Below, piece after piece: positions 24,050-26,451 of a stretch of DNA of 43,729 nt (the stretch's first letter is position 1; each line of letters begins with the position of its first letter). The DNA lies in assembly GCA_002772995.1 (NCBI GenBank), contig PFCO01000004.1, positions 1 to 43,729 of the forward strand, given 5' to 3'. Source of the DNA: Candidatus Niyogibacteria bacterium CG10_big_fil_rev_8_21_14_0_10_46_36. GTDB lineage: Bacteria > Patescibacteriota > Minisyncoccia > 1-14-0-10-42-19. The notes beneath the pieces are model-generated. The model was not told where the DNA came from. It was given only the letters and a program-made list of their open reading frames with translations, and did no database searches. The position numbers and the translations under genes are program-made.

Positions 24050-24304
24050 TTATTGTCCCGGGAGAATCGCGTTGAATTGAGAGAGGAGCTCTGAAAGCCG
24101 CGCAACATTGCTGGAGAATGCTTCAAGATACGGCTGTACTTTGATGAACCCGATAACAAGCAGCGCAATGACCAGTCCCCACTTTACAAAAAAGAAAAAC
24201 CGGCCCCATAGGCGCGCGCGGTTCAGCGCTTTGAGTATCTTTAATGATTCACGCGATACCTTGAGGTTTTCCTCAAGGAGTTTTTTTAGTTCTTTATCGT
24301 CCAT
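24050..24304 (-). CDS. Small coiled-coil plus transmembrane protein
   Basis: 84 residues. A charged helical N terminus (MDDKELKKLLEENLKVSRES, probable coiled coil to ~30) leads to one transmembrane helix (about 36-53, FFFFVKWGLVIALLVIGF) and a short external tail. Such short helix-TM proteins are frequent in Patescibacteria, with unknown function. On the minus strand TATACT ends 6-7 bases before the ATG, with a CAGACA 17 bp further upstream, so the mRNA is probably leaderless. Convergent with the glycan operon. Confidence 0.65.
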   Translation of the reverse strand: MDDKELKKLLEENLKVSRESLKILKALNRARLWGRFFFFVKWGLVIALLVIGFIKVQPYLEAFSSNVARLSELLSQFNAILPGQ

Positions 24305-24439: not shown

Positions 24440-25327
24440 ATGAATGCTGTCGCGGTACAAGAAAAGACGAAGAAAGTTTCGCCGCAGGTTGTCATCAAGA
24501 ATTACATTATGAATGACCTGCGTGCGCTTGCTATGAAAGCTTTTTTGAATGGCAAGGGTGATATTTCTTGTGTCTCGTATGAAATAACAACCCCCGAACT
24601 TGCGAAGATGTTTGAGGGAGGCCTTTTGCCCGGCATCAAACGCAAGCATCTCCAGCAGTATGTGCGGGAGGTTCTCTGTGCGTGCGAGGACAAGAAAGAG
24701 ATATTGCTGGTGCGCGACGGGAAGAAAGCAGTTCGGCGCATTCAATTTCGTATGCATTTTGGAGAGCATGCGGCAGGCATATGCAAGGGAAAACAAAAAA
24801 CAATTCTCCGTAAAAAAAACGGGAACGATGTCCTTGTAGAGAGAATAAAGAACGGGATACAGCGTCCTGCGGGGCGTTTCATTTTTCCAAAGAGCAAGAA
24901 GCGCGGTGAGGCGCATGAGGCATGTAATAAAGGCGACAGGAATGAGATGCGCTTTTACCAGCTTATTTCTCTCTGGTGCGCTCGCATTACTTTTGCGCTC
25001 AAAGAGTTAGGCGTGACAATCCGTACACAAAAGTCAGGCAGACACAGACCCGAAGCAGGATTGTTCGACCGCAAGGACAAAGCGGGAGAGGACGTGGATG
25101 TTCTGGTGTTTCTCGGAAAGAAGCGTTTCTGGTTTATCTTTGATGTGAAGTCCTCGCGGAGCAGGGCGAAAGATTTTAATAAAAATATTTTTCTCACCAA
25201 GCATCAAAAAGACGCGACATTAAAACGGGCGATATTAGTGAATGATGAACGGAGTGATGACGACATTATAAAGGAAGTCATTCGTCACATTGCCCGGGCA
25301 ACTACCGTTACTCTTCCTTTGTATTAA
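24440..25327 (+). CDS. Hypothetical protein with PD-(D/E)XK nuclease-like C terminus
   Basis: 295 residues, strongly basic. The N-terminal ~105 residues alternate helices with short strands and may be a winged-helix module (TPELAKMFEGG). The middle is a Lys/Arg-rich linker. The C-terminal ~130 residues resemble a restriction-endonuclease fold: Glu169 in a helix, then EDVDVLVFLGKKRFWFIFDV with KSS, giving Asp220 and D235-x-K237, the spacing of a PD-(D/E)XK active site. I recognise no named family. It may be a DNA-repair, recombination or defence nuclease. It has strong transcription and translation signals and a terminator, so it is probably well expressed. Confidence 0.65.
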   Translation: MNAVAVQEKTKKVSPQVVIKNYIMNDLRALAMKAFLNGKGDISCVSYEITTPELAKMFEGGLLPGIKRKHLQQYVREVLCACEDKKEILLVRDGKKAVRRIQFRMHFGEHAAGICKGKQKTILRKKNGNDVLVERIKNGIQRPAGRFIFPKSKKRGEAHEACNKGDRNEMRFYQLISLWCARITFALKELGVTIRTQKSGRHRPEAGLFDRKDKAGEDVDVLVFLGKKRFWFIFDVKSSRSRAKDFNKNIFLTKHQKDATLKRAILVNDERSDDDIIKEVIRHIARATTVTLPLY

Positions 25328-25333
25328 AAAACA

Positions 25334-25367
25334 GCCGCCTCTTCTGGCAACAGAAAGGCGGTTTTTT
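25334..25367 (+). terminator. Terminator of the PD-(D/E)XK-like gene
   Basis: CCGCC (25335-25339) pairs with GGCGG (25357-25361), with an inner TTCTG/CAGAA stem and GCAA tetraloop, followed by six T. Confidence 0.85.
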
Positions 25368-25434: not shown

Positions 25435-25505
25435 TGGCGGAGGCGGGAGGATTCGAACCTCCGAACCCTTTTTGGGGTTAATCTCACTTGCGGTAGGATT
25501 GCTTT
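25435..25505 (-). pseudogene. tRNA-Ser 3' remnant with encoded CCA
   Basis: On the minus strand this stretch ends in the long variable arm, T arm and 3' acceptor strand of a tRNA-Ser, nearly identical to the intact copy 50 bases upstream, and it carries a complete GCCA 3' end (25438-25435). An AAAGCAA segment (25505-25499) also aligns with the intact gene. The 17 bases in the anticodon-arm position form a poor stem and lack U33, and there is no D arm or 5' acceptor strand. It is a truncated copy, not a functional tRNA. Confidence 0.7.
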
Positions 25506-25546
25506 GTTTTTGTTCCTTTTGATTTCGCAAAAACCCTGGGTGCGTC

Positions 25547-25659
25547 TTATAAACAATGCGGAGGCGGGAGGATTCGAACCTCCGAACCCCTTTTGGGGGT
25601 TAACACATTAGCAGTGTGTTGCTTTCAGCCACTCAGCCACGCCTCCGCATTGTTTATAA
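25547..25659. repeat. 20-bp perfect inverted repeat enclosing tRNA-Ser
   Basis: Bases 25547-25566 are the exact reverse complement of 25640-25659. The inner 7 bp are the tRNA acceptor stem; the outer 13 bp (TTATAAACAATGC outside the tRNA) extend it beyond both mature ends. Further out, GGGTGC (25538-25543) and GCACCC (25668-25673) also pair. The tRNA therefore sits at the tip of a long helix. Confidence 0.85.
25559..25646 (-). tRNA. tRNA-Ser(GCT)
   Basis: 88 nt on the minus strand. Acceptor GGAGGCG (25646-25640) pairs with CGCCTCC (25566-25560); T8-G9 and D arm GCTGAGTGGC follow; the anticodon stem ACACA/TGTGT holds loop CTGCTAA with anticodon GCT (reads AGC/AGU); the long variable arm CCCC...GGGG is diagnostic for tRNA-Ser; T arm GGAGG TTCGAAT CCTCC; discriminator G (25559). 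The genomic 3' end continues CAT, so the CCA is not encoded. Confidence 0.93.
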
Positions 25660-25675
25660 AATTTGAAGCACCCCC

Positions 25676-25703
25676 GCGAAAAGCAAAATTTTTTGCTTTT
25701 CGC
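25676..25703. repeat. 13-bp hairpin between tRNA-Ser copies
   Basis: GCGAAAAGCAAAA (25676-25688) is the reverse complement of TTTTGCTTTTCGC (25691-25703). On the minus strand it begins within the D-loop region of the 5' tRNA-Ser fragment and folds back on it. Confidence 0.75.
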
Positions 25704-25722
25704 CCACTCAGCCATCCCCTCC
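25694..25722 (-). pseudogene. tRNA-Ser 5' remnant
   Basis: On the minus strand GGAGGGGATGGCTGAGTGGG followed by CGAAAAGC matches the acceptor and D arm of the intact tRNA-Ser (GGAGGCGTGGCTGAGTGGCT), with one extra base before the D arm. It then runs into a hairpin instead of an anticodon arm. No 3' half follows before the intact gene, so it is a fragment. Confidence 0.6.
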
Positions 25723-25782: not shown

Positions 25783-26451
25783 TCATCCCTTCGCTATGGT
25801 TATACCGAATATTTTTTCCGCACCGGCGTCTCGTAATATGCGCGCGCATTCGTTGAGTGTTGCGCCTGATGTGAGCACATCATCAACCAGGATGATTGCG
25901 CGTTCTTTTGGAGAAAAATTCTTTGCCAGAGTGAGCGATCCTCGGATATTTTTCTTTCGTTCCATTTTTGTGCGAAGTGTTGTTTGCGATGGCGTGTGTG
26001 TTGTTTTTAGTATTGCGTGCATATCTGTTTCCCAGTTGCACGCCTTTGCCACATGTTCCATAAATACTTCTGCGTGGTTGTATCCGCGTATTCGTTTTGT
26101 TTTTTGTGATATGGGCACAGGAACCAGAAGGGGGGAATGTGTTTCGGGAAAAAGCGAAGAGAGATCCCGCGCGTAATGTGCGGAGATACCTCCAAACCGC
26201 TCCGCGAGCCGTTTTGCGCGGCGGTATTTAATATGCCGTATAGCTTTCCGTACCGCGGGGGTGCTGTAGTGAAATAGCGAAAGCACGATAACGCCTGAAG
26301 AAAGCCGCGTGCGTTCGGGGCTTGCAAAGAAGCGCTCACACGCCTCGCAAAAAAGCTCATCTGCCTTCCCGCACCCAAAGCATCGCTCGGGGAAAAGGAT
26401 GCCAGACGCCTTTAGGAGTGCTGTGTGGATAAGTCGGAATACCATGCGCAT
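25783..26451 (-). CDS. comF: ComF-family phosphoribosyltransferase-like protein
   Basis: 222 residues. An N-terminal zinc-finger-like CFGCGKADELFCEACERFF (two CxxC pairs) is followed by a core with HYSTPAVRKAIRHIKYRRAK, LLVPVPISQKTKRIRGYNHA and the PRPP-binding motif AIILVDDVLTSGATLNECA. ComF is needed for uptake or processing of transforming DNA in naturally competent bacteria, probably on the cytoplasmic side; here it lies next to the type IV pilus locus, which supports a competence role. The promoter TTGTCA-17-TATAAA (26482-26454) places the transcription start close to the third codon, so translation may begin leaderless at ATG 26445 (MVFRLIHT). Confidence 0.9.
   Translation of the reverse strand: MRMVFRLIHTALLKASGILFPERCFGCGKADELFCEACERFFASPERTRLSSGVIVLSLFHYSTPAVRKAIRHIKYRRAKRLAERFGGISAHYARDLSSLFPETHSPLLVPVPISQKTKRIRGYNHAEVFMEHVAKACNWETDMHAILKTTHTPSQTTLRTKMERKKNIRGSLTLAKNFSPKERAIILVDDVLTSGATLNECARILRDAGAEKIFGITIAKG

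Follow-up and report, generated by a model that had tools for sequence, protein, structure and literature searches.

A tRNA-Ser(GCT) gene apparently nested at the tip of a hairpin element within a broken copy of itself

Genes for tRNAs count as some of the most stable in a genome. In Archaea, mobile tRNA introns and split tRNAs involve elements that interrupt tRNA genes and pass from one to another (reviewed in PMC10714607), and tRNA-dependent lysogeny has been described in mycobacteriophages (Guerrero-Bustamante and Hatfull 2024, PMC10865867). The mitochondrial DHE/RHE of sponges and Allomyces are short hairpins or double hairpins, non-coding and present in many copies at intergenic and RNA-coding sites, for which no transposase is known (PMC2800124). 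In the literature that we searched, which took in few subscription papers, no description was found of nested tRNA cassettes or of the repeat sequences reported below.

Here we analyse a stretch of 43,729 nucleotides (the window), contig 4 of the 827-kb genome, 98.7% complete, of Candidatus Niyogibacteria bacterium CG10_big_fil_rev_8_21_14_0_10_46_36 (G000 below). The size of the genome and its relatives suggest a member of the Patescibacteria. A long inverted repeat surrounds its tRNA-Ser(GCT) gene, and we consider it probable that this repeat belongs, as the stem, to a small non-coding hairpin element whose site is the D-loop of a tRNA-Ser gene and whose tip carries a functional tRNA-Ser(GCT), the outcome of a mobile insertion, of replacement by a tRNA of the same isotype and of decay of the outer copy.

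The nested tRNA-Ser(GCT) locus

The sole tRNA that ARAGORN found in the window is Ser(GCT), and tRNA is likewise the only RNA family to attain its Rfam gathering score there; in an E-value scan of Rfam the cmscan matches near tRNAs were weak and far under cut-offs, with no intron family among them. The original prediction had suggested looking for a second tRNA-Ser(GCT), and no other was found among the 44 tRNAs of the genome. The perfect 20-bp inverted repeat is as that prediction described it: its arms (25547-25566 and 25640-25659) are 100% identical over 20 nt and comprise the seven acceptor pairs and 13 Watson-Crick pairs outside them, the first being C-1:G73, and the extension amounts to 15 pairs when G-U is counted. 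With the one spacing tested, 13 flanking pairs were reached at none of 43,509 window positions. The partial pairing said to follow further out is also present in the predicted fold (GGGGGTGC..TTC with GA..CGCACCC), where the 13-bp extension is succeeded outward by a GGGGGTGC/GCACCC foot and then by an adjoining 13-bp hairpin, and where feet, arms and acceptor stem make one long helix with small interruptions (z=-6.5 against shuffled sequence). Extra acceptor pairs number 0-2 in 41 of the 44 tRNAs; the proposed check of all tRNA genes for flanking repeats left three with long ones, namely Pro-GGG (18 pairs), Ser-GCT (15, G-U allowed) and Ile-TAT (10). The last of these (L015, G000:C3:16404-16475) has in addition a distal CATGACATC/GATGTCATG pairing, but no clear outer tRNA halves. 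GCA is indeed what stands at the 3' end of the tRNA-Ser(GCT) gene, yet this is not the peculiarity it had been taken for, CCA being encoded in only nine of the 44 tRNA genes.

Read along the minus strand, the order of the parts is outer 5' half, hairpin 1, hairpin-2 foot, arm, inner tRNA, arm, foot, filler and outer 3' half (Table 1). The outer halves are close copies of the inner tRNA, since 44 of 45 positions are identical in the 3' half and 25 of 28 in the 5' half; in the repeat search they appeared as a 58-nt direct repeat (25437-25494, 86%) and at 25698-25714. The original prediction had noted neither these halves nor hairpin 1. Because the D-loop of the outer tRNA-Ser is split, its anticodon loop is scrambled and without a Ser anticodon, and its acceptor pair 6-67 is mismatched, the outer copy appears to be dead, the inner copy doing the work. 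The 44/45 identity also favours the outer gene as the source from which the tRNA of the element would have been copied recently. The whole insert covers about 210 bp (~25496-25703) and therefore has no room for integrase or phage genes, and the filler may be what is left of a further hairpin insertion. Judged from its sequence, the sole tRNA-Ser(GCT) of this genome is thus the apparent tip of a double-hairpin element interrupting an older copy of itself.

Table 1. Parts of the tRNA-Ser(GCT) locus in window coordinates
Feature	Position	Strand	Basis or remark
Outer fossil tRNA-Ser 3' half, AGATTAACCCC...CCGCCTCCGCCA (variable arm, T arm, acceptor strand, GCCA)	25435-25484	minus	
Decayed filler, about 40 nt folding back, GTTTTTG/CAAAAAC palindrome	25496-25534	minus	predicted fold; interpretation
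Hairpin 2 3' foot and element end, GACGCACCC-AGG	25535-25546	minus	predicted fold; compared by eye with the CCC-xGG end of model copies
3' arm, CATTGTTTATAA	25547-25558	minus	13/13 pairing with G73 included
Inner tRNA-Ser(GCT), functional	25559-25646	minus	ARAGORN (25558-25646); Rfam tRNA 61.9 bits
5' arm beyond acceptor stem, TTATAAACAATGC	25647-25659	minus	repeat search
Hairpin 2 5' foot, GGGGGTGCTTC	25665-25675	minus	pairs with 25538-25546 in predicted fold; fits R1 GGG..CCC foot
Hairpin 1, GCGAAAAGCAAAA-AA-TTTTGCTTTTCGC, perfect 13-bp stem	25676-25703	minus	R1 match G000:C4:25632-25707, E=1e-5
Outer fossil tRNA-Ser 5' half, GGAGGGGATGGCTGAGTGG	25704-25722	minus	D-loop break directly after GTGG
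comF-like phosphoribosyltransferase gene	25783-26451	minus	syntenic neighbour marking the ancestral tRNA-Ser(GCT) locus

The same locus can be followed in relatives, as pilM and comF adjoin tRNA-Ser(GCT) in G002, which belongs to the same genus, and in G036, G033, G006 and G053 of other families, where the extension measures 1, 4, 1 and 0 bp, respectively. The syntenic tRNA-Ser(GCT) of G002 is identical to the inner tRNA of the window at 70 of 72 positions, and its T-loop is interrupted by a different double hairpin; downstream of this broken copy lies a new tRNA-Ser(GCT), extended by 10 bp and with arms unlike those of the window in sequence and length. Because the broken copy and the new tRNA differ from the window arrangement, two species of the same genus seem to have had the gene at this locus remodelled in different ways. 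For the window insertion itself, no homologous site without the insert was found. Between the tRNA and an ORF at 24050-24304, which in G002 directly follows the tRNA, the window has a 295-aa ORF (24440-25327, plus strand, convergent to the tRNA) without a Pfam match. Broken-tRNA T-loops of G002 (L051, L207, L217, L218 and L221) contain a different double hairpin, CCCGATCATCCGATCGGGCG-CCCAGTCGAATGACTGGGCG and variants of it, exactly after GGTTCG.

These comparisons bear on two other readings of the repeat. A fold so much more stable than shuffled sequence would suit a regulatory or processing structure (a terminator, or a control of RNase P or RNase III) selected for the maturation of tRNA-Ser. 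However, the hairpin has no T run and received no terminator call, and the only downstream terminator of the scan lies further off (25334-25351), which speaks against the terminator role that had been considered; no promoter was found at the hairpin either. Moreover, the syntenic extensions in the other families are as short as given above and the arms of the congener differ, so that we hold such a function to be very improbable. The least credible reading is that a palindrome was misassembled in a draft genome. Palindromes can mislead short-read assembly, the assemblies searched consist of multiple contigs, and one of the deep nests described below (L399) lies near the end of its contig; against this, unique asymmetric sequence flanks the locus on both sides, the outer and inner copies are not identical in sequence, and similar architecture is found at Pro-GGG in the same genome and in many independent assemblies. 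The original prediction had held that absence of the repeat from close relatives would point to an artefact of assembly or of local duplication; the four genomes of other families do have only 0-4 bp, but G002 carries its extension and a broken tRNA-Ser(GCT) of its own.

A dispersed family of double hairpins

Many copies of about 75 nt without a tRNA are found in G010, laid out as hairpin 1 - GGG - hairpin 2 - CCC - xGG. Among ten aligned copies, both sides have changed in 12 of 20 pairs, shuffled and slid controls giving far lower values. A covariance model built on the family (R1) matches 63 of 286 genomes of the class, with at most 17 matches per genome; the window copy scores E=1e-5, and the copy adjoining Pro-GGG, which was part of the model seed, 3e-9. 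The occurrence of this family in the class and the position of the window copy within the remains of a tRNA of the same kind lend support to the mobile or inverted-duplication origin that the original prediction had offered.

The insertion targets are D-loops, entered after GG (AGTGG^; GTGG^..AAGAGC), the loops of variable arms and the loops of palindromic repeats, and in tRNA-Pro (Pro-GGG) the anticodon loop, entered after GGGG. One palindromic repeat of G039 is present in 14 unoccupied copies (e.g. GTCATTCCCGCGAAGGCGGGAATCC; GTCATTCCCGCGAAGG^CGGGAATCC), and its occupied copies have the element after GAAGG; such unoccupied copies beside occupied ones are the best evidence for mobility of the elements. 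Nesting similar to that of the window is found in its own genome at Pro-GGG, and in other genera as Ser-in-Ser (L056) and Thr-in-Thr (L063).

Remains of a tRNA of matching isotype lie in the flanks of 5/44 tRNAs in G000, 18/42 in G002 and 9/44 in G039 (32/130 in total), the null obtained from other isotypes in the same flanks being 1.8%, 0.5% and 1.1%, respectively. In 12 cases both flanks contain a half, the upstream flank the 5' half and the downstream flank the 3' half, and the split point falls near the anticodon in most fossils and in the D-loop in others. Extensions of at least 8 bp are associated with such remains (10/17 vs 22/113, p=0.0013). In G039 (L056, L197-L206), which is 99% complete, no intact tRNA-Ser(UGA) was found and the sole candidate anticodon lies in a split outer copy (C33:40823-40865), a finding most simply explained by missing sequence.

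Ile-TAT (10 bp), together with Asn (15) and Tyr (11) of G002, is extended without detectable outer halves. Because Ile-TAT has its 10 bp without clear outer halves, some acceptor extensions may arise otherwise than by nested insertion. These three would agree with template switching at the acceptor palindrome (quasi-palindrome correction), by which a complementary copy of the 5' flank would have been made after the 3' end without any mobile element, as would the fact that perfect pairing begins at the acceptor stem. Yet this process leaves unexplained the outer tRNA-Ser halves and hairpin 1, the GGG..CCC-AGG feet shared with the 63-genome family, and the identical CCCCGTTAGAAAT arms around five kinds of tRNA across assemblies (see below), and for the window we find it unlikely.

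Cassettes with CCCCG..CGGGG arms

Nested tRNAs are also met with a second kind of arm. At least 118 stretches contain the pair CCCCGTTAGAAAT..ATTTCTAACGGGG at a spacing like that around a tRNA, and among the matches listed it ranges over Patescibacteria, Omnitrophota, Planctomycetota, Deltaproteobacteria and others; exact matches in viral contigs numbered zero. Among these listed matches, 112 of 120 copies are free of a tRNA, and a 4-bp target duplication is found in 68 of 119, about ten being expected. With a length of about 100-130 bp, terminal inverted repeats and target duplication, the CCCCGTTAGAAAT family has the features of a MITE, an assignment that applies to its mostly tRNA-free copies and not to the window element. 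The tRNA-bearing copies among the matches listed are eight, and all eight lie inside a broken tRNA whose isotype, read by eye, is the same as that of the tRNA carried; they sit usually in the anticodon loop, without target duplication and mostly between TTCA[..]CRRG flanks or their reverse complement. In a separate scoring of 36 cassette loci, the outer halves best matched the inner isotype at 26, the outer isotype being unmatched at ten. Identical CCCCGTTAGAAAT arms recur in different assemblies around tRNAs for Ala, Val, Pro, Met and Leu.

Under a looser pattern, CCCCG...tRNA...CGGGG cassettes are present in 56 of 384 genomes of the class (a reversed control pattern gave one match), and under a stricter, phylum-wide pattern, which is not comparable with the looser one, in 3 of 380. 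The window's own genome has no match to the cassette pattern, its arms being TTATAAACAATGC and not CCCCGTTAGAAAT. At L263 and L339 (within L250-L367) the CGGGG end appears to rebuild the GGG start of the tRNA gene that was entered. Deep nests of tRNA-Val, with six and three levels, occur in G195, where the anticodon loop of the outer copies is interrupted by TTCA-CCCCGTTA... around one complete central tRNA: L401 (G195:C76:950-1700) has three levels whose acceptor strands match throughout, and L399 (G195:C16:4350-4848) has five successive 5' halves, each followed by TTCA-CCCCG, and then a sixth, complete tRNA-Val, after which the contig ends.

The matching acceptor strands at all three levels of L401 raise the question of whether an outer tRNA could be functional, as an intron-containing or split tRNA from which the insert would be spliced out, the inner tRNA being intron-borne. 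Outer halves at several loci do keep acceptor and T-arm pairing, and G039 has no intact tRNA-Ser(UGA) apart from its split outer copy. On the other hand, no Rfam intron family was matched, and removal of the element reformed no outer tRNA at the tested loci, except at one that overlaps an intact tRNA-Leu (eight loci were misread); brute-force removal followed by ARAGORN was uninformative, giving many arbitrary anticodons. The outer copy in the window is without a Ser anticodon, in the outer tRNAs of the cassettes the anticodon-loop bases are replaced by TTCA..CAAG, and all four Ser anticodons found in the window genome have intact tRNAs. We regard functional outer tRNAs as very improbable, and return to insertion followed by replacement from within as the preferred reading.

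Proposed mechanism and known systems

Under that reading, mobile hairpin elements would insert into loops, both those in tRNA genes and those in other palindromes. Because each tRNA is single-copy, an insertion would survive only where a tRNA of the same isotype is present, which here would be inside the element itself, and the interrupted outer copy would then decay. For the CCCCG..CGGGG cassettes we propose homing-like recombination, with the tRNA halves on either side serving as homology arms; if so, the same isotype, the same site, the absent target duplication and the repeated nesting of this family would follow because the element homes by way of the tRNA halves. In its general form this idea is tentative, and we give it somewhat less than an even chance: mobile tRNA cassettes, minimal non-coding hairpins each with a complete tRNA, would home into the loop of a resident tRNA whose isotype they share and would assume its function repeatedly, for instance by natural transformation with the displaced halves as homology arms for the following transfer, the essential tRNAs of this class of small-genome bacteria turning over like nested Russian dolls.

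Candidates for the mover were sought in the genomes concerned. The Y1 transposase (PF01797) is absent from G000, G010, G039 and G073 (at most 17 element matches each) and present in five other genomes, and an IS200/IS605 or REP/RAYT-type element was set aside on its absence from these four element-bearing genomes. Reverse transcriptase (PF00078) is absent from G000, G002, G010, G039, G073, G218 and G272, only G122 among the eight genomes having one; with seven of eight lacking it, a retroelement or retron was likewise rejected. An autonomous transposon between two CCCCGTTAGA repeats was discarded, the ORFs between distant pairs looking by eye like ordinary cellular genes and none like a transposase, and so was a group I or group II intron, no intron covariance model being matched and the host tRNA not being restored at tested loci.

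What these loci suggest is that tRNA genes of very small genomes, where each tRNA has a single gene, would be repeatedly broken by small hairpin elements and replaced from within by their own kind. If true, this would be a mode of essential-gene turnover, selfish DNA could inhabit essential single-copy genes without killing the cell, nested tRNA loci would be a trap for tRNA annotation, and both the processing of large hairpins around a tRNA and the agent moving the elements would become testable.

Compared with tRNA-dependent lysogeny, the window element likewise carries a replacement tRNA of the same isotype (Ser in Ser), but the inserts described here are non-coding hairpins of about 100-200 bp without integrase or phage genes, occupy either the D-loop or the anticodon loop and can form nests of several levels. 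In contrast to archaeal tRNA introns and split tRNAs, the interrupted tRNA is not restorable, its anticodon being lost, and the inner complete tRNA supplies the function; an archaeal-type split or permuted tRNA was rejected, the outer halves together encoding no complete tRNA with an anticodon (the anticodon loop is scrambled in the window and replaced in the cassettes). With TIR MITEs the CCCCGTTAGAAAT family shares terminal repeats and a 4-bp target duplication, whereas its tRNA-bearing copies lie in tRNA loops without target duplication, mostly between TTCA/CRRG flanks, and the window element has other arms. Anatomically the closest known system is that of the mitochondrial double-hairpin elements, with which the R1 family shares two adjacent hairpins, dispersed copies and no coding capacity, a likeness of anatomy; the present family is bacterial, however, is inserted after GG in the loops of tRNAs and palindromes, and in some copies carries a whole tRNA gene. 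The defining features of tRNA-dependent lysogeny or of DHE/RHE do not cover the nested tRNA element.
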